This document shows, piece by piece, positions 8,892-44,954 of a stretch of 47,810 nucleotides of DNA. Every line of letters starts with the position of its first letter. The stretch's first letter is position 1. Source of the stretch: an uncultured Spirochaetales bacterium (GTDB lineage: Bacteria; Spirochaetota; Spirochaetia; DTKZ01); assembly GCA_937991975.1 (NCBI GenBank), contig CALKLC010000080.1, positions 1-47,810 on the forward strand, in the 5' to 3' direction. Under the pieces are notes generated by a model. The model searched no databases. It had not been told where the DNA came from and worked only from the letters and a program-made list of their open reading frames with translations. Position numbers and translations under genes: made by a program.

Positions 8892-10163
8892 TTAGGGTGT
8901 GGTACGCTTCCTGTCCCTGGGAAAGAGGGAGGCTTCCTTCACGTTGGAAAGGCCGAGAATCTTCTGTGTAAGCCGCTCCAGGCCAATGGCAAACCCCCCG
9001 TGGGGCGGACAGCCGTACTTGAAGATATCCAGGTATGCACCTAATCCTTCCGGTGTTAAGCCGAATTTGGGCAGTGCGTCGAGGAGCATTTCGTACTGGT
9101 GGATCCGTCTTCCTCCTGTGGTAATTTCCAGGCCCCGAAATAGAAGGTCGAAACTACGGGTTTTCTGACCTTCCGGATACGCGTAGAAGGGGCGTTTCTT
9201 GCGGGGAAAGGCATACACGAACACTGCATCCACCCCATGCTCTTTCACCGCCCAGTCGCATAGGATCCGTTCCCCTTCAGGGTTGATATCGAAGACCTTC
9301 TTTCCCCCTTCCCTGGAGATGATCTCCTTTGCTTCATCGTAAGTCATCCGCGGGATCCGGTTCACCTCATCCTCTGTGGGAACCGTTGCCTTGTAGACCT
9401 CGAGATCCTCCCGGTTTTCTTCCTGCACCAGCCGGAAGATATGGTTCAGGATCCCCTGTTCCAGATCCATCAGTTCATGCTCCGATTCGATGAAAGCCAT
9501 TTCCACATCGAGGGACACGTACTCGTTCAGGTGCCGGGGGGTGTCGTGTTTCTCGGCCCTGTACGCATGGCCGATCTCGAACACCCGTTCCAGCCCGGAA
9601 GAGATCATCGCCTGTTTGTAGAACTGAGGGGACTGGGCCAGGTACACACGGGTGTCGAAGTACTCTACCGAGAACAACCCTGTTCCCCCTTCGGTACCCG
9701 ATCCGATCAGCTTGCTAGTTTTGATTTCAGTAAACCCGTTCTGCCGCAGGTACCTGGAAAAGCCCTTTAAAAGGGTAGCCTGGACTTTAAAGATACTTCG
9801 GATCTTCGGGATTCGGATCGAAAGCATACGGTTGTCCAGGAGGGCTTCCAATGAAAGCTTTTCCGGATCCTGGTTGATGGGAATCGGAAGGTCGGGATGA
9901 GCCTGCGCGAGGATTTCCGTGTTCGCCGCATGGATCTCGAGTCCTCCGGGTGCCTTTTCGTTCTTTCGTACTGTGCCCTGAACAGAGAGCACCGACTCCT
10001 GGGTGAATCCTACTTTCCCTTCATAGACCAATTGGACCATCCCTGTTCGATCCCGTAAGAGGACAAAAGAGATCCCTCCCAGTTCTCGAATCCGGTGGAC
10101 CCATCCCTTCACCTCTACTGCCTGATCCACATAGGTGCCGAGTTCTTTAACCAATATCCGCAC
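8892..10163 (-). CDS. aspS: Aspartyl-tRNA synthetase, archaeal-type, probably non-discriminating
   Basis: It charges tRNA-Asp, and probably tRNA-Asn, with aspartate. The short form (about 423 residues) lacks the bacterial GAD insert. It shows the class II motifs around [22 protein letters not shown] with RHLNEY, and ends [14 protein letters not shown] then [11 protein letters not shown]. In the anticodon-binding domain, [11 protein letters not shown] has His where discriminating archaeal enzymes carry Trp; that His is a reported hallmark of the non-discriminating kind. GTG at 10163 is chosen because GGAGG stands six bases upstream. It overlaps the gatB-fusion stop by 17 bases. The GatCAB genes directly upstream are the partner expected for turning Asp-tRNA-Asn into Asn-tRNA-Asn. 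Confidence 0.9.
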
Positions 10164-12555
10164 TGTTTGCCTCCATCCAGCGAAGGATCTCCTCATCCGA
10201 TTCCGCATAAAGCGAAGCAGCGATCAGCTTTGTGTACACGCTTTCTGTGGCAAGCCCTCCCATAGGAATCGCTCCTTCTTTCCAAAGTGCATGGGCTGTC
10301 ACATACCCGGAAAAATCCACAATCCCCTCCTGTTGAGAGGTGCAAAAAAAGTGGACCCCTTCCTGTTTCCCGATTTCAAAAGCCTTTTTCAGGGAAAAGG
10401 GACTTTGCCGCAGGTTGGCTGTTCCCGTATCGAAGAGTTCCAGAATAAAGAATCGTACACCCGCCTTGATGAGGGAAAGGAGCTGTTCACCCTGCATACA
10501 GGGGAATACTTTTACAATGAACACCCGCCGCACAATGCCTTCGATTCGCATCCGAAGGGATTCCTCTTCCAGCCCTCCTCCAAAGAGGGGGAAAGGCGAG
10601 GGGGCTTCTTTCCGTATCCGCTTCTGGTTCCATGTATAGAACCGCATGGGGTCCAGACTGGAGAACCTGAGGTTGACCGGCTCGAATCTCTCACCGCCGA
10701 ATACGACGGAAACCCCACCTCTGCCCTGAGCAGCCAGTTCTACGGCTTGCAGGATGTTCTGTGCTGCCTCCGTGCCTTCTTCCGGGGGCAGGGAGGCTGC
10801 GGTGAACACGAGGGGGATCTCTGCCTTGCCGAAGAGCCAGTGGAATAGGGAAGCGGTATAGGCAAGGGTATCGGTTCCATGGGTAATAACGATTCCTTTC
10901 GCGTTTCCTTCCTGAAGAAGGGAGGCTGTTCGAAGAATAAGGGTAGCCCAATCAGCCGGGGTGATCTCTTCGCTCAGAATTTCCTCTCCCGGCAATTCCT
11001 CCACCCGCACCCTATCTTTCCAGGCCGGATCCTGCTGGAGAATCTTCTGAATGGCTATACTTCCTCCAGGTACCACCATCCCGTCCCTGTCCCGCCTGCC
11101 GGAGATGGCTCCTCCAAAGGTCAGGAGGTAGAGGGAACTCGCCTGAAGCCGTTCCTTCAGGAGGGTCTGCACTACCCGCGGATCCGCTTTTCCTCCCGTT
11201 TCCTTCATAATTTGCCCCACGAGGAACCCCCACGGCTTCATGTCACCCTTGCGAATCGTTTCCACCACATGGGGATTCCGGGCCAAAATCTTTTCGACAA
11301 TACCGCCGATGGTTCCGAGATCCGTAATCTGTTCCCAGCCACGCTCCTTCAGAATCTGAGCGGGAGATTTGTCCTCCTGGAACAGGATTTCCAGCACCTG
11401 TTTGCCCAGCTTTCCGTGGATCTTTCCCTCCTGGAGCAGAACCAGAAGTTCGGCAAAACGCTCCGGGCTAAGGGGACTTGCAGGTAGAGTGATTCCCTGC
11501 CGGTTCAAAAGTTTCTGCACATCGGAAGAAAGCCAGGTAGCAGCCGCTGCAGGATCCGCTCCCTGTCCTACCGTTCGTTCGAAAAAATCGGCCGTGCTCT
11601 TTTCCGCTGTAAGAAACTCGGCCAGAGCCTCGGAAAGGTTGTACTGGGTAAGGAACCGGTTCTTTCTCTGGTCAGGGAGTTCCACCAGACTTTCTTCCAC
11701 TTCCTTCAGGAAGATTTCGTCCGCAGTGAACGGGGGAAGGTCCGGTTCGGGGAAATATCGGTAATCGTGGGCGCTTTCCTTCCTCCGCATCCCTTCGGTA
11801 ATGTCCCTATTCTCGTTCCACAGGCGGGTTTCCTGCAGGATCGTTCCCCCCCGGCTAAGGATTTCCTCCTGTCGGGCGATTTCGTAGTTCAAAGCCAGGC
11901 GAACGAATCGGGAAGAGTTGAGGTTCTTGATTTCCACCTTCTTCCCCAAACCCTGCCCGCGGAGGTTTACGGACACGTTTGCGTCGCAGCGGAGGGACCC
12001 TTCCTCCATGTTCCCGTCGCATACCCCCAGGTAGCGGACCATCCGTCGAAAGTTCTGCAGAAGAACCTCTGCCTCTTCCCCGATTTCCAGGTCCGGCTCC
12101 GTTACAATTTCCAGCAGGGGAGTGCCTGCCCGGTTATAATCGAGGAGGGACAGATCCCCCGCATGGATCGATTTCCCTGCATCCTCTTCCAGATGCACCT
12201 CATGAATCCGCACCCGTTTCTTCTTCTTGCGAAACTCGATATCCATGTACCCGTTCCGGCCAATGGGAAACGCATACTGGGAAATCTGATAGTTCTTGGG
12301 CATATCAGGGTAAAAATAGTTCTTTCGTTCGAATACAGTGACTGGACTCAACTGGCAGTTCAGCGCGCGTGCCACCACATACCCGTACTTTACCGCTTCC
12401 CTGTTCAGGGAAGGGAGGACCCCTGGGTACCCCATACAGACAGGACATACATTCGTGTTTGGTTCATCCCCGAACCGGACCGGGCAAGAACAGAACACCT
12501 TAGACTGGGTGAGCAGTTGGATATGGATCTCTAAACCGATGAAGGATTGATACAC
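10147..12555 (-). CDS. gatB: GatB fused to an L-asparaginase/GatD-like domain
   Basis: Residues 1 to about 470 are a full GatB, the tRNA-binding and kinase subunit of the Asp/Glu-tRNA amidotransferase: GLEIHIQL at the start, CPVCMGYPGVLP, KNYFYPDMPKNYQISQY, and the tail domain ending VQTLLKERLQ. With no linker or stop, residues about 471-802 form an asparaginase fold: LLTFGGAISG, LSEEIT, GIVITHGTDTLAYT, FTAASLPP. In E. coli AnsB numbering, Ser58 and the Thr89-Asp90 pair are kept. Thr12 (the nucleophile in GGT) is Ala, and the Lys162 position appears to be Asn. Archaeal GatD is a related amide-hydrolysing partner of GatE, but here GatA is also present. The domain may be an inactive Asn/Gln-binding module; this is inference. 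Confidence 0.93.
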   Translation of the reverse strand: MYQSFIGLEIHIQLLTQSKVFCSCPVRFGDEPNTNVCPVCMGYPGVLPSLNREAVKYGYVVARALNCQLSPVTVFERKNYFYPDMPKNYQISQYAFPIGRNGYMDIEFRKKKKRVRIHEVHLEEDAGKSIHAGDLSLLDYNRAGTPLLEIVTEPDLEIGEEAEVLLQNFRRMVRYLGVCDGNMEEGSLRCDANVSVNLRGQGLGKKVEIKNLNSSRFVRLALNYEIARQEEILSRGGTILQETRLWNENRDITEGMRRKESAHDYRYFPEPDLPPFTADEIFLKEVEESLVELPDQRKNRFLTQYNLSEALAEFLTAEKSTADFFERTVGQGADPAAAATWLSSDVQKLLNRQGITLPASPLSPERFAELLVLLQEGKIHGKLGKQVLEILFQEDKSPAQILKERGWEQITDLGTIGGIVEKILARNPHVVETIRKGDMKPWGFLVGQIMKETGGKADPRVVQTLLKERLQASSLYLLTFGGAISGRRDRDGMVVPGGSIAIQKILQQDPAWKDRVRVEELPGEEILSEEITPADWATLILRTASLLQEGNAKGIVITHGTDTLAYTASLFHWLFGKAEIPLVFTAASLPPEEGTEAAQNILQAVELAAQGRGGVSVVFGGERFEPVNLRFSSLDPMRFYTWNQKRIRKEAPSPFPLFGGGLEEESLRMRIEGIVRRVFIVKVFPCMQGEQLLSLIKAGVRFFILELFDTGTANLRQSPFSLKKAFEIGKQEGVHFFCTSQQEGIVDFSGYVTAHALWKEGAIPMGGLATESVYTKLIAASLYAESDEEILRWMEANSADIG

Positions 12556-12558
12556 AGC

Positions 12559-13962
12559 TTAACTCCAGGGTGAAGTATTGGTAGGCGCCTTGGGGGGCGG
12601 TACAACCCCGGCGAACCTCCGAGCCACCTGAAACAATAGATCCTCGGCGAAAACCGGTGCCATCAGCTGGAAACCCACCGGCAGACCCCCTTCCAGCCCC
12701 GCGGGAAAACTCAACGCAGGGATACCAGCAAGGTTTGCCGCTGTAGTAAACCGATCGGCCACCTTCTGCTGGAAAGGATCCAGACCCTCGGCTCCATGCC
12801 TGAAGGCCTGTGTAGGGAATACAGGGGAAAGGATCACATCAACCTCGTGAAACACCCGATCGAAATCCTTCCGGATGGCCGTTCGGATCCTCTGGGCCCG
12901 TTGATAGTACTGATCCTGAAATCCGGACCGAAGCACGTAGGTGCCTAACAGGATCCGCAGTTTCACCTCGTCTCCGAACCCTTCACTCCGGGCCTTCCGG
13001 ACCAGCTCTTCCGGGTTTTCCGCGTACTCCGGCCGGTAGCCATACCGGATCCCTGTGTAGCGGGCAAGGTTCGCGCTGGCCTCTGCCATGGCGATGGTAT
13101 AATAGACAGGCGCGTAATACTCGAGCATGGAGAGTTCCACCGGCTCTATTTCGTAGCCGAGAGATCGAAGCACCTCCTGGGTAGTTTTGTACGCCCTCTC
13201 TACCCCTGCCTCCAGCCCAAGATTTCCCGTAACCACACCGATCCGGCGGACCTGTCTCTCAGCACCCTCATTGCCCCATGCTTTAACAGGCGGTTCTACC
13301 GAAGTTTGGTCCCGATCGTCTTTTCCTCGAATATGGGTAAACATTTCGGCAGTGATCTCCACCGTAGAGGCACAGATTCCCACCACATCCAGTGAAGAGG
13401 CATACGCCACTAATCCGTACCGGGATACAACCCCGTAGGTAGGCTTTAACCCATAGATTCCACAGAACGCGGCAGGTTGCCGGACTGACCCTCCCGTATC
13501 CGAACCGAGGGCAAAGGGTACCAGGCCGCAGGCAACCGCAGCCGCACTCCCGCCGGAGGACCCTCCTGCCACCCGGTCCAGGTCCCAGGGATTGTTCGTC
13601 CGCTTGTAGAAGGAAGTGTCGCTGGAAGACCCCATACCGAACTCGTCCATATTGGTCTTCCCCACTACAACTGCCCCTGCCTGCTGTAATTTTTCCACTG
13701 CAGTAGCGGTATATGGGGAAACAAACCCTTCCAGGATCCGGGATCCGCAGGTAAGGCGAAACCCTTTGACAGCCAGAATATCCTTTACCGCGAAGGGGAC
13801 TCCCTTTAGAGGGCCTTCCGCTGAGCTTTCTGTTAGCCCACGACGGGGATCGAACTCAAGAAAGGCTCCGATTTTGGGTTCGATTGTTTCTACATACCGC
13901 TGGTACGTCTCTAAATTCTTAGGATCGGATAAAAGACCGATCCAGCGTGTCATGGAAGACAT
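12559..13962 (-). CDS. gatA: Asp/Glu-tRNA(Asn/Gln) amidotransferase subunit A
   Basis: GatA is the glutaminase subunit that releases ammonia for amidation by GatB. The amidase signature is intact: the catalytic Lys in [14 protein letters not shown] (near residue 60), the cis-Ser region [14 protein letters not shown], and the nucleophile Ser in [16 protein letters not shown]. 467 residues, a normal length. It starts at ATG 13962, a few bases after TGAGG, which overlaps the gatC stop region. It is four bases from gatB. Since GatA looks catalytically complete, the extra asparaginase-like domain on GatB is not needed to supply ammonia. Confidence 0.95.
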
Positions 13963-13968
13963 GGGGCC

Positions 13969-14247
13969 TCACAGTATATTGGGGATAACGATGAATCGAG
14001 CCTCTGTTTCGGGTGCATTCTCCAACAGAGAATCCGTATCCGTGAAAGGAAGGACATCATCAGGCCGTGTACGATTCTCCCGTACCAGCGCGTGTGTGGT
14101 AGGGGGAAGATCTGAAACATCAACCTCCATCATTTTGGAGAAGTATTGCAACATCTGATCTACCGCCCCCTCGAGCTTTTCGTATTCTTCCTCATCCAGC
14201 TCCAGATACGCCAGGGCAGCCGTAATACGAAGTTCCTGTAAATCCAT
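13969..14247 (-). CDS. gatC: Asp/Glu-tRNA amidotransferase subunit C
   Basis: GatC is the small chaperone-like strap of the GatCAB complex. The 92 residues show the family pattern: an N-terminal ITAALAYLELDEEEYEKLEGAVDQMLQ helix pair, VDVSDLPPT in the middle, and the closing region with FTDTDSLLENAPETEARFIVIPNIL. It heads the operon gatC-gatA-gatB-aspS, and the run continues without a large gap through nagZ, ROK, ppx and ppk. Its start codon has only a poor ribosome site very close by (AGG directly before ATG), and a promoter-like sequence lies just upstream (see site), so the mRNA leader may be only a few bases long. Confidence 0.93.
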   Translation of the reverse strand: MDLQELRITAALAYLELDEEEYEKLEGAVDQMLQYFSKMMEVDVSDLPPTTHALVRENRTRPDDVLPFTDTDSLLENAPETEARFIVIPNIL

Positions 14248-14258
14248 CCTGCTTCAAA

Positions 14259-14287
14259 CTTGTACTATCTCTTAGATTCTCTGTCAA
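14259..14287 (-). promoter_or_regulatory. Promoter of the gatCAB-aspS run
   Basis: TTGACA (14282-14287, read on the minus strand), a 17-base spacer and TACAAG (14259-14264). The -10 box ends 11 bases before the gatC start codon, so the leader would be about 4-5 bases. Confidence 0.5.
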
Positions 14288-14348
14288 GAAAGAAGCCACT
14301 AACACGCTTAACCTGCCTATCTATATATAATAAAAACAAATATTTTAT

Positions 14349-30441: not shown

Positions 30442-30770
30442 GGAGCAGAGCACCTTACCTTGAACAGTCCTGGCCGTAATCGAAAGGTTTTTCATTCGTG
30501 GCAGGCCGGCCGGGTCCGTCCGCCTGCGGCAGGGCCCTTTCGACTATGCAAACTTCGCAGCATCTATTGTGAAAAAAGTGCGGCGCACACACAAGCTGCA
30601 TGGGCGGTGCAATCTAGCGTATCTCAGCACCACTTATCCAGCAATCTGTACAAGAACTCCTACTTTTGCTATATTCCTTCCCCTGGGGATGGAGTTCCCC
30701 CTGAACCGCCTTCCGGCTGATGACTCCTGTTACATCTTAATCATCACTTGCTCTTGTGGAGGTTGACTGC
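30442..30770. other. Intergenic stretch without a recognisable gene
   Basis: About 330 bases between divergent transcripts. A G/C-rich imperfect inverted block near 30503-30530 (GGCAGGCCGGCC with GCCTGC) and an AGCACCACTTAT stretch near 30626, slightly like one end of the dispersed repeat, were seen. No gene was identified. Confidence 0.4.
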
Positions 30771-32060
30771 ATGGAACCCCTGTTCTTTCTTACATCCCTC
30801 TGGCTAGCCCTTGCTCTTGGGGCGGCGGTTCTGGCCTACTATCTTAAAGTATCTATCGCTCTGGTAGAGATTTGCGTGGGAATGATCGCGGGCTCGGTTG
30901 CGACAGCCGGAGGCTGGTTCGAGTCTCTCGGTACGGGCAATGAAACCCTCCGGTTCCTCGCCTCTTCCGGTGCCGTGCTCCTCACCTTCCTGGCCGGAGC
31001 AGAACTGGAGCACGAAACCCTCAAGAAGAAACTCACCGAGGTGTCGGTAGTAGGAATCATCGGATTCTTTGCTCCCTTCATCGGATGTTCGCTGGTGGCC
31101 CGTTTTATCCTCGGCTGGGATGTACCGGCCAGTCTCTTAGCGGGAATCGCTCTTTCCACCACCTCGATGGCAGTGGTGTATGCCGTGATGCTGGAGACCG
31201 GTTTTAATCAAACTGAGTTCGGAAAAGGGATCCTGGGAGCCTGCTTTATCAACGATATCGGTACCGTTCTGGGATTGAGTCTTATCTTTTCTCCCTTCAC
31301 CTATAAAACTTTTGTGTTCCTGGGGATAACCCTTGCGGTGCTTGCCCTTCTCCCCGCTTCGAGTCGCTTTATCACCCGCCACTACGCGCATAAAACAGCC
31401 GCCATCCGCACAAAGTGGATGCTCTTTATCCTCTTTGCCCTGTCCGCCCTTGCCCTCTGGTCGGGAAGCGAAGCTGTACTGCCCGCGTATCTGGCAGGGA
31501 TTGTCCTGGCAGAGTTTGCCCGAGTGAACCATACCTGGCTGCGGCGCCTGCGGACCCTCACTGTCGGCTTCCTGACGCCGATTTACTTCCTCCGGGCAGG
31601 GACTCTTGTGTCTCTTCCTGCCCTCGTAGGAGGGTTCCTGCTGTTCGTTCTTCTTTTCTTAGGGAAAGTGGCTTCCAAGATCTTCGGCCTGTACCCCGTG
31701 ATCGCTCGGTTTCGAACGGATCGAAAGGAACGATGGTACTATTCCCTCATGATGTCCACAGGGCTCACCTTCGGAACCATCTCCGCCCTCTACGGACTTA
31801 CCCATAACATCGTTACCCAGGAACAGTACTCTCTCCTCGTGGCCGCGGTCATTGCCAGTGCGGTTATCCCTACCCTCATTGCCAATGCGGCCTTCCTTCC
31901 GGCCCACCTCCTGCCTGCCGCTGTCCCACCCGGTGGCAGCCCGCCCACATTTGGGGACCAAAGTGCCGCTCAACAGGGATCAACACTCCAGGGAGCAGGC
32001 TCCAGCCGTGCACAGGCCAAAACGAAGGGGGATGGTAAGGAACTGGATGAGGAAGGGTAG
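30771..32060 (+). CDS. CPA2-type cation/proton antiporter (Kef/NapA-like)
   Basis: A sodium or potassium ion/proton antiporter of the CPA2 family in the inner membrane. About 12 hydrophobic helices are visible; the core shows GMIAGSVA, a re-entrant LASSGAVLLTFLAGAELE, ALSTTSMAVVYAVM and FINDIGTVLGLSLIF, where the ND pair is the ion-binding site of electrogenic antiporters. About 429 residues with no C-terminal TrkA-N domain. ATG at 30771 has GGAGG eight bases before it. The last 40 residues are Pro/Gly/Ser-rich and charged. It is monocistronic; a decayed vapC end lies just beyond its stop. Confidence 0.85.
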   Translation: MEPLFFLTSLWLALALGAAVLAYYLKVSIALVEICVGMIAGSVATAGGWFESLGTGNETLRFLASSGAVLLTFLAGAELEHETLKKKLTEVSVVGIIGFFAPFIGCSLVARFILGWDVPASLLAGIALSTTSMAVVYAVMLETGFNQTEFGKGILGACFINDIGTVLGLSLIFSPFTYKTFVFLGITLAVLALLPASSRFITRHYAHKTAAIRTKWMLFILFALSALALWSGSEAVLPAYLAGIVLAEFARVNHTWLRRLRTLTVGFLTPIYFLRAGTLVSLPALVGGFLLFVLLFLGKVASKIFGLYPVIARFRTDRKERWYYSLMMSTGLTFGTISALYGLTHNIVTQEQYSLLVAAVIASAVIPTLIANAAFLPAHLLPAAVPPGGSPPTFGDQSAAQQGSTLQGAGSSRAQAKTKGDGKELDEEG

Positions 32061-34281: not shown

Positions 34282-36213
34282 CTACCCCGCCACAATTTTG
34301 GCACCACTTTTGAACGCCTCCACGTGGCGGAAACGAAGCAGAAGATCCACAAACCGGGGGTCTGTTTCAAGCGGCACAGGATTAGACTTATACAGAGGTA
34401 CACCACCCCCTGATCCCTCGAGCAATCTGGCATTTGCCTTTGCTGTACCAGGCAGGAATATGTCCGACCGGTCTACTTCCAGTGGTATACCGTCGATCCG
34501 GTCTTTCTTTGATCCCGCTAAACCCATCGGCCTATCCTTGATGAGATCTGGCGTTAGGATAAAGGGAGCCGGGCCTGGGTTCCCCATCCTCTCATTTTCA
34601 GAGACACCCACCATGGGAAACCAGTACAGGTGGCTTCGGCATCTGCAATCGGTAGAGCCGAACCCTTCCACCGGCACCCCTCCGATCTCCGCTAATTCCC
34701 GAGCCAGCTCGCACTCCAGGTTCTGGTAGGAAGCGATGGGATACCCTTTTGCGTACGTGGCGGCCTCCGCCAAATAATCGATATGCCAGTGCAGCTTCTT
34801 TCGTTGCACCCTGCTGGAGAGATTCCCCTTTGAGAGATTCCCCTTCAAGAGATTCCCCCCGATACGCAGATGGCGGGCGATTCTCGCTTTGAGCCCTCTC
34901 CGGGCAGAACCCGCGTACACGTACCATCCCGGTGGAAAGTCTATCCATCCCAGTGCGCCCACCTCAAGGGCAGCACCAGCTGGAAGAAAGAGGGACACAA
35001 GGTAACTCCCCCTGTCCTGCTCTGCCAGCCCCCCATGTGACAGTTCTACGGGAAAGTCCGTGCCGGCCACCCAGGCCTGCCCTTCCGAATCGGCCGCAAT
35101 CTCGGCCGTATGGATCTGTATCCAGGGTGCTACCGTCGACAGAGTTACTGCAAACTCCGGATCGGTATGCAGGTTGGGGATGAACCTCTTTACTGGACCA
35201 TGGGTCAGGACAAATACCACATGAGCCCCATACCCTGCTTTAGCAACTTCAGCCAGTTCCCGAAGGTGCCGTACTGCCCGACTACTGGGCGCGTCAGGGA
35301 ACATAGCCACTCCATGCGCAACAAGAGTACATCCCTTTACTTCAAGAAAATGACCCTTTCCTCCAGCATCTTCAATAAAAAAATCGAACTGGGAATTCCC
35401 CCACCGGACTTCCCGCTGGATTTTGCGGGCGCCTGGGAACAAACGGGGAAGGATCAGGGCTTCCGTAAGGCGGTTCAACCGGGAGGAGTATAGGGGCACC
35501 ACCCTGGTATTCGCATACTTTTTTTCCGGCGGATTCTTGAACGACGGATCCTTTAAATCAACCCCTGCTGAAGAGTAAACTGCTACGAGAGTCCACTCTG
35601 TTTTGCGGGAGGTACGGGAATGGAGCGCGTAACCTTCCCTGAATGGAACAACGAATCTTTCATTCTCGGGTTTTTGCGGTTCTTCCTGCACCTTCTCCGC
35701 TTCAAGAACGGCATCAGAATCTGCCCTCTTTCTGCGTTCGAGGATCACACGGGTTCCGGGGAATAGAAGTTCCATCAACCTTCCAGGATTAGGGCAATGG
35801 GCGGAATACGGATTTTCTATTTGCATTCTGTCGGTACTGGTATTCCCCGACGCATCCCCAGCTTGCCCAATGGGGGCAGACGCAGCAGGTTTGATATTCC
35901 TTTTCACCCCCATCACCTCGCCTGCCGGGCTGGTAAAGGCCGCCCCTTCATCTTTCGAAGGCGGAATTCTATTTCCAGACAAGCCAGATTCGGTGCATCC
36001 GAACCCGCTATCGCTCGAATGCGGTGCTCCTACCCCTGCTATCTTGGAGACCGCACTTACCCTAGACATGGATCCTGGGGGACAGTCTGTCACCTCCACT
36101 CGAAAGCGGTTCGGTCTACGGAAGAAAAAAGCTTCCCGATCATTTTTGAACAGGGGGAACCCCGGAACAGTCACTCTGGTGGGACCAGTCCCATCTGTTT
36201 GTGGATCTGGCAT
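34282..36213 (-). CDS. sfsA: SfsA DNA-binding/nuclease domain fused to a DUF123 (GIY-YIG-like) domain
   Basis: Residues 14 to about 375 are SfsA: PLFKNDREAFFFRRPNRFRVEV, AHCPNPGRL (138-146), NRLTEAL, then the PD-(D/E)XK-like core with Asp near 277 and LEVKGCTLV (290-298). SfsA binds DNA. Two inserts interrupt it: about 44-135, Ser/Gly/Ala-rich, and about 165-200. Residues 400-533 are a DUF123 domain: GWYVYAGSARRGLKARIARHLR, HWHIDYL and GFGSTDCRCRSHL, of the GIY-YIG nuclease superfamily. A 15-bp triple repeat adds GNLLKGNLSKGNL inside it. The last 110 residues are unassigned and the final AFKSGAKIVAG is encoded by the dispersed 22-bp repeat. Confidence 0.85.
   Translation of the reverse strand: MPDPQTDGTGPTRVTVPGFPLFKNDREAFFFRRPNRFRVEVTDCPPGSMSRVSAVSKIAGVGAPHSSDSGFGCTESGLSGNRIPPSKDEGAAFTSPAGEVMGVKRNIKPAASAPIGQAGDASGNTSTDRMQIENPYSAHCPNPGRLMELLFPGTRVILERRKRADSDAVLEAEKVQEEPQKPENERFVVPFREGYALHSRTSRKTEWTLVAVYSSAGVDLKDPSFKNPPEKKYANTRVVPLYSSRLNRLTEALILPRLFPGARKIQREVRWGNSQFDFFIEDAGGKGHFLEVKGCTLVAHGVAMFPDAPSSRAVRHLRELAEVAKAGYGAHVVFVLTHGPVKRFIPNLHTDPEFAVTLSTVAPWIQIHTAEIAADSEGQAWVAGTDFPVELSHGGLAEQDRGSYLVSLFLPAGAALEVGALGWIDFPPGWYVYAGSARRGLKARIARHLRIGGNLLKGNLSKGNLSSRVQRKKLHWHIDYLAEAATYAKGYPIASYQNLECELARELAEIGGVPVEGFGSTDCRCRSHLYWFPMVGVSENERMGNPGPAPFILTPDLIKDRPMGLAGSKKDRIDGIPLEVDRSDIFLPGTAKANARLLEGSGGGVPLYKSNPVPLETDPRFVDLLLRFRHVEAFKSGAKIVAG
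34287..34308 (+). repeat. Dispersed 22-bp repeat, copy 4 (right-end orientation)
   Basis: A perfect match to the consensus GCCACAATTTTGGCACCACT preceded by CC. It lies inside the 3' end of the SfsA-fusion gene and supplies its last codons. Confidence 0.9.
34817..34861. repeat. 15-bp tandem repeat, three units, inside the SfsA-DUF123 gene
   Basis: GAGAGATTCCCCTTT, GAGAGATTCCCCTTC and AAGAGATTCCCCCCG in direct succession. In frame, the units encode repeated (K/R)GNL(L/S) in a loop of the DUF123 domain. Confidence 0.9.
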
Positions 36214-40280: not shown

Positions 40281-41357
40281 ATGACCCGGCGAAAGTTTTT
40301 ACGACTCCTTCTGTATGGGGGCGGTTCTCTGGTACTGACTAGCTGTGCGAGGCGCCTAGAAAAAGCAGTTACCCAACCTATTTCCGCTCCTACTAAAAGG
40401 GTACGTAATTGGACCCCTGCCTACGCCATACTGGAGGAGCAAGGGAAATTAAAAGAGAAAGTAGAACAGGCTTACTCTATTCTTGAACAATGCCGTCTCT
40501 GCCCTAGAGCCTGTGGTGTAAATCGTTTAGCAGGAGGTAGAGGATACTGCAGAGCACCGGGAAAGACAGTAGCAGTGTACAGCGCACATCCACATTTTGG
40601 AGAAGAACTGCCATTGGTGGGAACGTTTGGTTCGGGAACCATCTTTTTTTCCCACTGCAACCTTCGGTGTGTGTTCTGCCAAAACTGGCCTATCGCACAT
40701 GAAGGATTAGGGAATGAAGTGGAAGATGAAGAACTAGCGGCTATGATGCTATACCTTCAACGGATCGGTTGCCATAACATTAACCTCGTTACCCCAACCC
40801 ACGTCATGCCACACATAGTCCAGGCCACCCGTTTAGCTTTGCACAAAGGCTTGAAAATCCCCCTGGTATACAACACCGGCGGTTATGACAGCCTCGAAGC
40901 GGTTACACTACTGGAAGGTATTGTAGATATCTATTTGCCTGATCTGAAGTTTATGGATGGAGCGCAATCCCGAATTTATACCGGTGGAGCTGCCGATTAT
41001 CCCGCTGTAGCAAAACAGGCTATTAAAGAGATGTACCGTCAGGTCGGAGATTTGGTAGTAAATGAAGAAGGGGTGGCCTTGCGAGGTTTAATGATCCGAC
41101 ACCTGGTTATGCCGAACCGGATAGCGGGAACACGCGAGTTCGTCCACTGGGTAGTAAAGGAGCTTTCCCCCACTGTATATGTGAATATCATGGCGCAATA
41201 CAGAGTAGAACATCGAGCGTTCGAATATCCTAAGATTGCCCGGGCTATTACGGTTGAAGAGTTTGTGGAGGCTATGGAATGGGCAAAGGATGCCGGGCTA
41301 ACAAACTTAGACGAACGTTCCCGAGCCCTGTACCAGATATATCGAGGACGGGGCTAA
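40281..41357 (+). CDS. PflX-like radical-SAM protein with twin-arginine lipoprotein signal
   Basis: A radical-SAM enzyme of the PflX / COG1313 group, function unknown. The N-terminus is a Tat signal (TRRKFLRLLLYGGG) with a lipobox-like TSC near residue 20. A Cys motif C..C...C (CRLCPRAC) with a fourth Cys (RGYCRA) precedes the SAM cluster motif HCNLRCVFCQN near residue 129-139, the CxxxCxxC that binds 4Fe-4S. 358 residues. GGAGGTG lies nine bases before ATG 40281. Its stop overlaps that of the convergent AmrS-like gene by four bases. Export of an enzyme that needs SAM and reductant is odd; it may stay anchored on the membrane or be exported folded. Confidence 0.85.
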   Translation: MTRRKFLRLLLYGGGSLVLTSCARRLEKAVTQPISAPTKRVRNWTPAYAILEEQGKLKEKVEQAYSILEQCRLCPRACGVNRLAGGRGYCRAPGKTVAVYSAHPHFGEELPLVGTFGSGTIFFSHCNLRCVFCQNWPIAHEGLGNEVEDEELAAMMLYLQRIGCHNINLVTPTHVMPHIVQATRLALHKGLKIPLVYNTGGYDSLEAVTLLEGIVDIYLPDLKFMDGAQSRIYTGGAADYPAVAKQAIKEMYRQVGDLVVNEEGVALRGLMIRHLVMPNRIAGTREFVHWVVKELSPTVYVNIMAQYRVEHRAFEYPKIARAITVEEFVEAMEWAKDAGLTNLDERSRALYQIYRGRG

Positions 41358-42481
41358 ATGTTCCATTTCCCCGGTAGGGGGTGATTGCAAAAGGTACAGC
41401 GCCCTTTGGTAAGGTTAACTTGATTGACGAAAAATCCTACCCTCCGAACCACGATATTTTTGCAGTTAGGGCAATAAGTACTCTCTGCCCTGTGTCCGGT
41501 TACCCTGGATAGATACACGTATTGTAGACCGACATTCTGAGCTAAAGAGTAAGCCCGTTCTAGGATGGCAACAGGGGTAGGGGGAAGATTGACTAGTTTA
41601 TACAAGGGGTAAAAACGGGCAAAGTGAATGGGGATGGTTGGGCCTATATGCTCTTTGATCCAGCTAACCAAACGCTGAAGAGAAGCTATGTCGTCATTCA
41701 GTGTAGGAATAACCAGGTGGGTAATCTCCACATGGATGCCCGCCTGTACTAACAGCTGGATGTTGTGTAATATCGGCTCCAGCTCCCCTTTGCAGTAAGT
41801 ACGGTAAAACTCGGGATTAATACTTTTTAAATCGATATTTGCTCCGTCCAGGTAGGGGAGGAATTCTCTTAGGGCAGCGGAAGAGATGTAGGCGCTGGTA
41901 TGGAGAAGGTTTAAAAGGTTTGCCTTCCGAGCCTGGATAGCCGTGTCCAGGGCGTATTCAAAAAAGGCCGTGGGTTCTCCAAAAGCATAGCTAATAGCCT
42001 GGGCTTTAGATGCCAGAGCAAATTGCACAACTTCCGCGGGAGGTAAGGAGTACGCATGAATTTCTTCTGGGCGAACTAACGCCATGTCCCACACCTCACA
42101 GAACATGCATTCCAGAGGACACCCCGCTGCAGCAATGGATACGGTTCTGCTTCCCGGCACTATATGGTAGAAGGGGACCCGTTCCACCGGATCGATTTGG
42201 ACAAGGCTGGGAGTCCCGTAAGTAAGGGTTACTCCCTTCCCCCTTCGGTTTTCCCGGACCCTGCAAATTCCCCGCTGTCCACTGGATAGAGTACAAGCTT
42301 TAGGGCACAGCGTACAGGTAAGAGTGTTTCTTGCAGAGGGCTGAAACCAGGGGGAAGGACGAATTCCAAGCAGCCCCTTTTGGGCTGTCTGTGCATGACT
42401 GACAGCGGGAGGCATCAGGGATAATAAACCTATCCCACACGTCAGGGTACCGCAGGTTTTAAGGAATTCCCGTCTATCCAT
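41354..42481 (-). CDS. amrS: AmmeMemoRadiSam-type radical-SAM protein with twin-arginine signal
   Basis: A radical-SAM enzyme of the AmmeMemoRadiSam (AmrS) group; its AMMECR1 and Memo partners are not in the window. It starts with a canonical Tat signal (DRREFLKT, a hydrophobic run, then AVSHAQ). Cys pairs CTLCPKACTL and RGICRV precede the radical-SAM motif GCPLECMFCEVW (CxxxCxxC). C-terminal Cys pairs YCPNC and CTFCNHP probably bind zinc or iron. 375 residues. It overlaps the stop of the upstream membrane spermidine-synthase-like gene by eight bases, so the two are co-translated. A second Tat-tagged radical-SAM gene is convergent to it. Confidence 0.87.
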   Translation of the reverse strand: MDRREFLKTCGTLTCGIGLLSLMPPAVSHAQTAQKGLLGIRPSPWFQPSARNTLTCTLCPKACTLSSGQRGICRVRENRRGKGVTLTYGTPSLVQIDPVERVPFYHIVPGSRTVSIAAAGCPLECMFCEVWDMALVRPEEIHAYSLPPAEVVQFALASKAQAISYAFGEPTAFFEYALDTAIQARKANLLNLLHTSAYISSAALREFLPYLDGANIDLKSINPEFYRTYCKGELEPILHNIQLLVQAGIHVEITHLVIPTLNDDIASLQRLVSWIKEHIGPTIPIHFARFYPLYKLVNLPPTPVAILERAYSLAQNVGLQYVYLSRVTGHRAESTYCPNCKNIVVRRVGFFVNQVNLTKGRCTFCNHPLPGKWNI

Positions 42482-44954
42482 GGGATATTCTTTCTGCTAT
42501 CCATAGTATTATAAAGGCAGTAATATTTGCAAGAGCTGCAAAGTAGAAACAGGCGGGAAGCCCCAGTATCGGGGCAAGGACAATCCCGGCCACCAGGCCC
42601 CCGAGGCAAGCCCCCCAAAGTTCTGCTCCATACACAAAGCCAGTTGCACGGTCTACTGTCTTTTGAATTTTAAATAGGCTGGCTGCTGCCAGAGGGAAAT
42701 CCGCTCCATTTAATCCCCCTGAAAAGAGGGTAAGAAGAGAAAATCCTACGAATACCCAGGCAGGACTGCCGGAGACATGGGGAAGAATGATCCCAATAAG
42801 AGTTGCAAAAATACCCAGACCAAATTGGATCCGGGCCAGGGCGGAAAGGCTTGTTAGCTCCTTCATATACTTTTGACTTAAAGAAGTTCCCAACGCAAGG
42901 CCGATCATAAAGAGGGCAGTGATAAAGCCGATCATTTCATACACGAATCCGTACTGAGTTTGAAAGGCAAAAAGAAGGGCTACTTGCATACTCATGGTAG
43001 AGATCCCGGTGGTAAAAACACAGAAAGTAATTGCATACCTTAAAGGAAGGTTCTGGAAGTTGATTTTTAGTAAAAACCCTCTGAGGTGCAGAAGAAAAAG
43101 GATGAGAAACGGAAGAAACAAAGCTGGGATCCCCCAGAAAGGTTTTATGGGGAGCAAGAAAGATAGAAACCGGGATTGATCCTGTCGGGTAAGGGAACTC
43201 CAGAAATGTAAACTATGAAAGTACCCTATGGGTCGAAAGTCAGAATTGATGAAGTACTGTTCCTGTACAGGGAGGAGGACTGTAGCCTTTTGTTCTTCCA
43301 GGGGCGGTAGGATTAAGGGGCCTCGCTGGGGTGGAAAGAATGCGGATCGAGCTTCCCTTCCATGGGAATGGAGAATCCAATTGGTCCGCAGTAGGGGCCC
43401 TTCCAGGTATAAATTTTCTAGAAAGAAGGGGGATATCCCCTCCGCATTGAGTATCCGATGTTGAAACCGTTCTATTAAAATATGGGGGCTTTGAGGGATG
43501 CCCTCCGCAGAAAGAGTAGCAAAAAAATAGAGGGTATGTTCCCCCACTGCAAGAACTCGAGGAAATACTGCTCGCAGGGTATGGTAAAGGGTAGCATTTC
43601 GGTTGGCTATGGCTGTGCCGCGCAGTTCGGGTGTAGAGGTGGAGTAAAAGCTAAGGACTCCGTCGCGGGAAAGCCTGGAGGCGGCTAGAGCAAAAAATTC
43701 CACCGTATAGAATCTATTCAAGGTAGCGGTCGTTGGATCGGGAAGATCCAGGACAATACAATCGTACTGCAGGGAAGAGCTGCGAAGGAACTGACGTCCA
43801 TCCCCTAAATAAAGATGAACTCGCGGGTCCTGTAGAGCTCGTTGAGTTTTCTCGGGAGCGTAAGGAACAACCAGATCCAGTAGAGCTGGGTCAAGTTCCA
43901 CATAATCTAAATACGAAATAGGGTGAGATAGGATCCCCCTTAAGGTGCCTCGAAGACCACCGCCGATAAGAAGGACTTTTTGGGGAGAAGGATGTTGCAA
44001 CAGTGATAGATGGGCAAATTGGAGAGCCGATTGTTCTTCAAAAGCCGTCTGTTCCTCTGCATGTATTCGTTTTCCTTGTTCCTCCAGGTCCGGCGCTGCC
44101 ATAGTAAATAAGATCTGCCCGCTCTGATATACACTAACCTGTTTTTCCCGTTTGGTTACGGTAAGGAGCCCGTATCGGGAAGATTTGTACCCCAGTACCT
44201 GCGCATCCGGGTTCCCCACAGTCCACTGCCATTTTAAAGATAGGTCGTCTGCCCGGTGAACCAACCACAAGCCCAGACCGGTGAGAGCTATACATGCGGT
44301 CCCCTGTAAGGCTGCCTGAAGGGGGCTCAGGGAAGGAAAAATCCGGATAGCGGAACCCTTGTACAGAAAAAGTAATGCGATGCCCAGTAAGAGGCTGGAT
44401 CCTAAGGCAATTTGAAAGGGGCTCCCCAGATGCACCAGGAAAAGGGAAAACCCCAGGCCTCCAATGGCAGTTCCCACTGACTCTGCAATATAGGTTTTTC
44501 CACCTATACGAGTATCGGTACCCTGTACGGCTTCCCTCCAGGAACGGGCTAAAAGAACAAACAAGCTCCCGATGAGAAAACAAACAGGGCTCATTACTAA
44601 AAGACTGATTGATAGAATATCGAATAGGGATAACATCCCTCCGAAAGGAACAGGCAATATCCCCCGTAAAAGACGAACAGCTCCTAAGGTTAAAGGCAGA
44701 AGAAGGGCAACCGCTATCCCCTGTCCTAAAAGAGCCTTCGAAGAATAGCCAGTCTCAATTCTTCGTGCCTGCCATCGGCTGCCCCACCCTGTCCACAGAA
44801 GCCAAACAGAAAAAATAATTCCAAAAGAAAGTTCGTTTCCTTGAAAAATAGTAAACAGTTCTCTAAAAAGAAGAGCTTGCCCTACCTGACAGAAAAGGCC
44901 GTAGGTTAGCACAGCCATACCGTACGAAACCTTCTGTGCTCCTTCTTTTACCAC
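42474..44954 (-). CDS. Polytopic membrane protein with a spermidine-synthase-like domain
   Basis: 826 residues in three parts. Residues 1 to about 250 hold about seven membrane helices (starting with GMAVLTYGLFCQVGQALLF). Residues about 250-550 hold an aminopropyltransferase-like Rossmann fold: KVLLIGGGLRGTLRGIL for the nucleotide loop, YVELDPALLDL, YLGDGRQFL, and DLPDPTTATLNRFYTVEFF for the usual catalytic Asp region (DSSDP in SpeE). The last 250 residues are again membrane helices, in MFS-like pairs. Fused transporter/spermidine synthases of this layout are known but mostly uncharacterised. Coupling to the radical-SAM gene downstream points to a joint membrane-linked modification. The GTG start at 44954 lies eight bases past a strong -10 box. 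Confidence 0.85.
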   Translation of the reverse strand: MVKEGAQKVSYGMAVLTYGLFCQVGQALLFRELFTIFQGNELSFGIIFSVWLLWTGWGSRWQARRIETGYSSKALLGQGIAVALLLPLTLGAVRLLRGILPVPFGGMLSLFDILSISLLVMSPVCFLIGSLFVLLARSWREAVQGTDTRIGGKTYIAESVGTAIGGLGFSLFLVHLGSPFQIALGSSLLLGIALLFLYKGSAIRIFPSLSPLQAALQGTACIALTGLGLWLVHRADDLSLKWQWTVGNPDAQVLGYKSSRYGLLTVTKREKQVSVYQSGQILFTMAAPDLEEQGKRIHAEEQTAFEEQSALQFAHLSLLQHPSPQKVLLIGGGLRGTLRGILSHPISYLDYVELDPALLDLVVPYAPEKTQRALQDPRVHLYLGDGRQFLRSSSLQYDCIVLDLPDPTTATLNRFYTVEFFALAASRLSRDGVLSFYSTSTPELRGTAIANRNATLYHTLRAVFPRVLAVGEHTLYFFATLSAEGIPQSPHILIERFQHRILNAEGISPFFLENLYLEGPLLRTNWILHSHGREARSAFFPPQRGPLILPPLEEQKATVLLPVQEQYFINSDFRPIGYFHSLHFWSSLTRQDQSRFLSFLLPIKPFWGIPALFLPFLILFLLHLRGFLLKINFQNLPLRYAITFCVFTTGISTMSMQVALLFAFQTQYGFVYEMIGFITALFMIGLALGTSLSQKYMKELTSLSALARIQFGLGIFATLIGIILPHVSGSPAWVFVGFSLLTLFSGGLNGADFPLAAASLFKIQKTVDRATGFVYGAELWGACLGGLVAGIVLAPILGLPACFYFAALANITAFIILWIAERISHG

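Follow-up and report, generated by a model that had tools for sequence, protein, structure and literature searches.

Radical-SAM enzymes predicted to act outside the cytosol beside an MFS-like membrane protein: a conserved gene set seen from a Spirochaetales contig

Radical S-adenosylmethionine (SAM) enzymes are regarded as cytosolic (or organellar) proteins, since they depend on SAM, on electrons of low potential and on an intact 4Fe-4S cluster, and we know of no earlier radical-SAM system working outside the cytosol. Why, then, would two radical-SAM proteins carry export signals and be encoded next to a membrane protein with a spermidine-synthase-like (SpdSyn-like) domain? The question is raised by a locus at positions 40281 to 44954 of contig CALKLC010000080.1 (47,810 nucleotides, hereafter the window), which is part of a 79% complete metagenome-assembled genome (MAG) of 222 contigs from an uncultured Spirochaetales bacterium. 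The locus encodes a PflX-like protein, an AmrS-like protein and a membrane protein that we call the SpdSyn-MFS partner. On balance, we favour the reading that it encodes an extracytosolic radical-SAM system, in which the partner most likely delivers SAM to tethered enzymes and an envelope component is modified. All three genes lie where a sequence-only reading of this DNA had placed them, with the following features (aa, amino acids; TM, transmembrane segment; Tat, twin-arginine translocation):

40281..41357, plus strand: PflX-like radical-SAM protein, 358 aa, a predicted Tat-exported lipoprotein; Shine-Dalgarno-like AAGGAGGT upstream.
40281..40346, plus strand: Tat signal of the PflX-like protein, MTRRKFLRLLLYGGGSLVLTSC, with lipobox LTSC at residues 19-22; the orthologues in G018, L221, L222 and L224 also have a lipobox.
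40656..40679, plus strand: radical-SAM motif CNLRCVFC of the PflX-like protein.
41354..42481, minus strand: AmrS-like radical-SAM protein, 375 aa, predicted to be Tat-exported; 305.6 bits with TIGR04337 (cut-off 220).
42392..42481, minus strand: predicted Tat signal peptide of the AmrS-like protein, residues 1-30, MDRREFLK...AVSHA.
42098..42121, minus strand: radical-SAM motif CPLECMFC of the AmrS-like protein.
42474..44954, minus strand: SpdSyn-MFS partner, 826 aa, with 7 TM, the SpdSyn-like domain and 7 TM; 8 bp overlap with the AmrS gene.
44268..44921, minus strand: N-terminal TM block of the partner, TM1-7, residues 12-229; TM1-6 homologous to TM9-14.
43146..44267, minus strand: SpdSyn-like domain of the adenosyl-binding type, within residues 230-603 and predicted to lie outside the membrane; L334 replaces the D/E, and E353, D355 and D385 are retained.
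42489..43145, minus strand: C-terminal TM block of the partner, TM8-14, MFS-like.

Both radical-SAM proteins matched Pfam Radical_SAM (PF04055; 58.6 bits for the AmrS-like and 48 bits for the PflX-like protein) and contain CxxxCxxC. The PflX-like protein resembles PflX/COG1313-type proteins in this domain and in its N-terminal cysteine set, CxxCxxxC plus CxxxCxxC; unlike them, it has a Tat signal with a lipobox and a tie to the SpdSyn-MFS partner, and it reaches no NCBIfam cut-off. The sequence-only reading had described twin-arginine signals on both proteins and a lipobox on one, and this was borne out. The PflX-like protein begins with MTRRKFLRLLLYGGGSLVLTSC, followed by A, which comprises a twin arginine, a hydrophobic stretch and the lipobox LTSC (predicted lipidation). 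The AmrS-like protein begins with MDRREFLKTCGTLTCGIGLLSLMPPAVSHA, followed by Q, with a twin arginine, a hydrophobic stretch and an AxA-type site predicted to be cleavable. The overlap between the AmrS gene and the membrane-protein gene, also described there, measures 8 bp. The PflX and AmrS genes are convergent, with 4 bp in common at their stops; PflX is, therefore, outside the partner/AmrS transcription unit.

A single profile scan of genome contigs with the partner alignment retrieved 194 relatives, and we analysed the best 80 loci of this motif-seeded scan. Partner relatives were present in Spirochaetota, Chloroflexota, Nitrospirota, Thermodesulfobacteriota, Myxococcota, Cloacimonadota, Omnitrophota, Bacillota, Balneolota and Pseudomonadota, among others; within Spirochaetia, the C-terminal membrane block was matched in 54 of 395 genomes. 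This neighbourhood survey, which had been suggested as a check, placed an AmrS- or PflX-type radical-SAM gene no more than 3 kb from the partner in 57 out of 80 loci (tblastn), and in 37 out of the 46 that extend at least 1.5 kb to both sides. Seventeen same-strand overlaps were found between the partner and its neighbours. The exact cassette (partner, AmrS and convergent PflX, both enzymes Tat-tagged) occurs in the window and in five other genomes (G018, L221, L222, L223 and L224), the six spanning Spirochaetia, Bacillota, Omnitrophota and Gammaproteobacteria; the partner gene of G018 is divided between two contigs. The gene set is conserved and widespread, which confirms that it is not a quirk of a single genome. 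Neighbour clustering of the partner loci found no recurrent substrate gene, and the only recurring neighbours were AmrS/PflX, Memo-AMMECR1, a nitroreductase, a DsbD_2-like protein and general genes.

The export signals follow the partner gene. By our rules, a signal was present in 59 out of 62 AmrS or PflX proteins encoded within 3 kb of the partner, vs 1 out of 55 elsewhere (Fisher p 1.8e-28), the cytosolic control proteins being mostly from Spirochaetia. The three adjacent proteins scored as signal-less were one in G018, in which Tat and lipobox are visible by eye, the AmrS of G042 and the second AmrS copy in L209; the sole non-adjacent protein with a signal sits about 5 kb from a partner gene. 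A start-site artefact was considered and ruled out, given that all but 3 of the 62 adjacent homologues have signals and all but 1 of the 55 others lack them. Adjacent homologues do not start downstream of the putative signals; they keep them, and several unrelated types of signal are involved (Tat, Tat plus lipobox, Sec and membrane anchor). CxxxCxxC was retained in all exported AmrS (35 of 35) and PflX (26 of 26) proteins. In our quick trees, the exported AmrS proteins form one side of a branch, a single clade (35 rows, SH-aLRT 85), and the exported PflX proteins require two changes.

The kind of signal also matches the export route available. Over all genomes tested, the counts with TatC were 30 Tat and 3 non-Tat, and those without TatC were 6 and 13, respectively (p 1.5e-5), TatC calls being affected by MAG gaps, including those of the window's own genome. 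Signals in TatC-less genomes were mostly Sec or membrane anchor. Within Spirochaetia, TatC is uncommon (16 of 60 genomes); it is present in G018, where the signals are Tat, and absent from G025, G048, G035 and G012, whose signals are Sec or anchor. We read this pattern as suggesting that a location outside the cytosol is under selection, whichever export route a genome offers. We consider it very likely that the AmrS-like and PflX-like proteins are exported, a prediction with strong comparative support.

It could instead be that the signals merely tether the enzymes from the cytosolic side, the chemistry being cytosolic and the MFS-like partner exporting the product. Known radical-SAM enzymes do use cytosolic SAM and electrons from flavodoxin or ferredoxin, and some Tat-like sequences need not cause export. 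However, the N-termini are positive (N-in, C-out), several proteins have cleavage sites or lipoboxes, Sec or anchor signals mostly substitute in genomes lacking TatC, Memo-AMMECR1 fusions of related loci bear lipoprotein or Sec signals, and the domain of the partner is itself predicted outside. We regard cytosolic tethering as improbable.

What does the membrane partner contribute? The sequence-only reading had placed helices on both sides of an aminopropyltransferase-like domain, and the arrangement holds: Pfam Spermine_synth matches residues 313-460 with 80 bits, flanked on both sides by hydrophobic segments. Compared with solved structures, the partner profile matched spermidine synthases and one METTL13 chain, over the SpdSyn domain only. 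The AlphaFold model is confident (pLDDT 89, pTM 0.90). By Lys/Arg counts (positive-inside pattern), the short charged loops all fall on the inner side and the SpdSyn-like domain on the outer. TM1-6 recur as the homologous TM9-14 (hhalign probability 98.8), and the C-terminal half resembles MFS carriers (Foldseek probability 1.00, TM-score near 0.55-0.6). The architecture thus reads as that of an MFS-like carrier to which two central helices and, in an outward loop, a SAM-type domain have been added. That this domain is located outside the membrane is likely, again a prediction with strong comparative support.

Its residues bear on the most obvious reading of such a domain, namely that the partner makes or exports polyamines and its radical-SAM neighbours are incidental or polyamine-modifying. 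The 80-bit Spermine_synth match speaks for it. With SpeE and the fused MFS/spermidine synthase (NF037959), the partner shares the SpdSyn fold, a sequence match and TM segments. It differs from both in its 7+7 TM arrangement with the domain between and outside. Moreover, the partner scores far below the SpeE cut-offs and misses all curated ones (NF037959, 24 bits vs a cut-off of 40). Over 74 sequences of the partner family, E353 is kept in 74, D355 in 72 and D385 in 74, positions that we take to bind the adenosyl part in SpeE, and N413/R414 are (nearly) invariant. The acidic residue of GxG[D/E]G, which holds decarboxylated SAM in spermidine synthases (PMC10349129), is gone in 74 out of 74 (L334 in the window), and the Asp pair of the polyamine site (D-x-x-D-P segment) has D in only 4 and 15 of the 74. 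The loss of the decarboxylated-SAM residue and, in most sequences, of the Asp pair, with the adenosyl-binding residues kept, makes a polyamine role unlikely. In addition, a canonical SpeE is encoded elsewhere in the same genome, and the link to radical-SAM neighbours is too frequent for chance. Judged by these residues, the partner is probably not an aminopropyltransferase; polyamine synthesis was ruled out on residue loss and missed cut-offs, and we give the wider polyamine explanation very little credence.

The conserved gene set, the signals, the kept radical-SAM cysteines and the lost aminopropyltransferase residues are all established at the level of sequence comparison. They strongly suggest that the enzymes act outside, membrane-tethered, beside a protein whose SAM-type domain would face the same side. 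In the mechanism that we propose, the AmrS-like and PflX-like enzymes would fold in the cytosol with their iron-sulfur clusters and then be exported by Tat, to remain attached to the inner membrane on its outer face, in the case of PflX as a lipoprotein. The 14-helix MFS-like partner, with its SAM-binding domain in the outward loop between the halves, would most likely carry SAM across the membrane and present it to the tethered enzymes. These would use it on an envelope component, which may be a lipid, the cell wall or an exported protein, with electrons coming from the membrane. Our reasons for ascribing SAM delivery to the partner are that SAM has to get to the outside, that the partner is carrier-like and that it serves two interchanging radical-SAM families. 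AmrS and PflX have exchanged as neighbours only about twice on the partner tree, as a shared supply role would lead one to expect. Delivery, to which we give somewhat less than even odds, and the nature of the substrate are the more tentative parts of the proposal.

Alternatively, the enzymes could be exported and the partner be an extracytosolic SAM-dependent transferase (methyl or 3-amino-3-carboxypropyl) sharing its substrate with the radical-SAM enzymes and acting either before or after them, with the helices anchoring it or moving the substrate. A precedent is the fungal N-terminal histidine methyltransferase (NHMT), in which seven TM precede a SpdSyn-like, SAM-binding methyltransferase domain that modifies secreted proteins in the endoplasmic reticulum; the TM part is needed and the acidic GxG(D/E)G residue is likewise lost (PMC10349129). 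The kept adenosyl-binding residues of the partner also fit a transferase. However, SAM would still have to get outside, the repeat and the MFS-like fold suggest a carrier, a single partner family serves both kinds of radical-SAM enzyme, and N413/R414, for all their conservation, do not amount to a known catalytic residue. Unlike NHMT, whose 7TM sequence was termed unique to filamentous fungi (PMC10349129), the bacterial partner adds a further block of 7 TM and lies beside radical-SAM genes. We rate a transferase role as unlikely, albeit a reasonable competitor to SAM delivery.

Some relatives encode modules that could support the chemistry. The G042 partner is extended by an FMN-binding domain and two Fer4_5 stretches; the adjacent gene encodes a lipoprotein with Memo and AMMECR1 domains. 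Memo-AMMECR1 fusions with an export signal (lipoprotein or Sec) also stand beside the partner in L194, L196, L197, L202 and L210. Beside the two anchored AmrS of L184 lie genes (10343-14293) for an exported nitroreductase, FMN_bind/Fer4_5, DsbD_2 and an iron-sulfur-assembly protein (MIP18-type) with a TM anchor; L185 has two AmrS, Fer4_5, DsbD_2 and a weak DnaJ-type zinc-finger protein. Among known extracytosolic electron carriers are NapH-like proteins bearing FMN-binding domains (PMC8238504). The G042 fusion and the pair encoded in L184 resemble this flavinylated electron-transfer system, unlike the window, which has no such module. Neither that paper nor a later one on flavinylation mentions radical SAM, Memo or AMMECR1. 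The FMN-binding/NapH-type and DsbD-type modules are, for these relatives, a candidate answer to the electron problem. Three further observations concern partner loci. In L186 and L190, an exported nitroreductase-like protein lies beside the partner with no radical-SAM neighbour. L044 (5860-9849, minus strand) encodes a 1329-aa fusion of partner, FMN_bind and two Fer4_5 stretches, with the flavinylation-like motif DATTGATMTG. Between its partner and AmrS genes, L188 encodes a lipoprotein-like protein of 962 aa that contains BNR/YCF48-type repeats (10346-13234, minus strand).

The nearest described system is AmmeMemoRadiSam (TIGR04337 AmrS, Memo and AMMECR1, cytosolic). The AmrS-like protein is alike in scoring above the TIGR04337 cut-off and keeping the Cys motifs, and related loci have Memo and AMMECR1 as one fused protein. 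The differences are the export signals, the added SpdSyn-MFS protein, the separate clade of exported AmrS and the lack of Memo and AMMECR1 in the window. Neither was found there, as the sequence-only reading had stated, albeit the exported fusions of five related loci and G042 indicate that they are not foreign to the system. Elsewhere in the MAG, a second AmrS is split over two contigs, Memo and AMMECR1 lie side by side on contig C177 as a cytosolic pair, and another PflX is encoded. Given this ordinary cytosolic set, the locus in the window represents a second, exported one. The contig showed no sign of being a contaminant: GC content is 0.483 in the locus and 0.521 in the window, vs 0.483-0.537 in the other contigs of the MAG.

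Several points weigh against an extracytosolic system fed by the partner. TatC and TatA were not detected in the window's own 79% complete MAG; TatC is present in two near-complete congeners (G001 and G002) and in G018. The other window genes that were scanned included no recognisable electron-transfer gene. The window partner itself retains D403 and D406 of the polyamine-site pair, the Foldseek E-values of the MFS match exceed 0.01 and Pfam MFS_1 falls below its cut-off. Start codons and signals were assigned by fixed motif and hydropathy rules rather than by a trained predictor, and the AmrS of G042 and one of the two in L209 are exceptions without a signal. The link between route and TatC is only weakly independent of phylogeny, with about 3:0 supported pairs, too few for a phylogenetic test. 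Finally, no case of SAM transport by any relative was found in the literature searched.

Weighing these points, a membrane-linked system with exported or anchored enzymes is strongly supported by gene-set conservation, the signal-neighbour link and the match between route and TatC. This core of the earlier interpretation stands, with three changes: the partner is probably no aminopropyltransferase, some relatives do include Memo and AMMECR1, and relatives offer a candidate electron source. The modification and its substrate are conjectural. A broader proposal is plausible, though we hold it with less than even confidence: a widespread, undescribed class in which a dedicated MFS-like SAM carrier would serve Tat- or Sec-exported AmrS/PflX doing envelope radical chemistry, sometimes adding exported Memo-AMMECR1, membrane electron modules and iron-sulfur-assembly proteins. 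In the literature searched on exported radical SAM, AmmeMemoRadiSam, SAM export and SpdSyn-MFS, which covered few subscription journals or preprints, we found no such system described. If true, the proposal would mean radical chemistry outside the cytosol, in a set conserved across many bacterial phyla; it would imply a bacterial SAM exporter and offer a compartment for testing the role of the unsolved AmmeMemoRadiSam trio. Cultured carriers (Desulfobulbus alkaliphilus DSM 24258, Thermodesulfovibrio sp. N1 and Balneolaceae bacterium ANBcel3) make tests possible.

Rfam and tRNA scans of the window returned nothing relevant to the locus. Elsewhere in the window, a GatB-asparaginase fusion is encoded by an 802-aa open reading frame (10147-12555, minus strand) with GatB catalytic, GatB/YqeY and asparaginase N- and C-domains, adjoining a GatA-type amidase (12559-13962) and a class II tRNA synthetase (8892-10208). 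SfsA and DUF123 are joined in a single 643-aa open reading frame (34282-36213, minus strand). A fluoride riboswitch (30676-30736, plus strand) lies directly 5' of a Na_H_Exchanger-family antiporter gene (30756-32060, plus strand), an ordinary fluoride-resistance arrangement.

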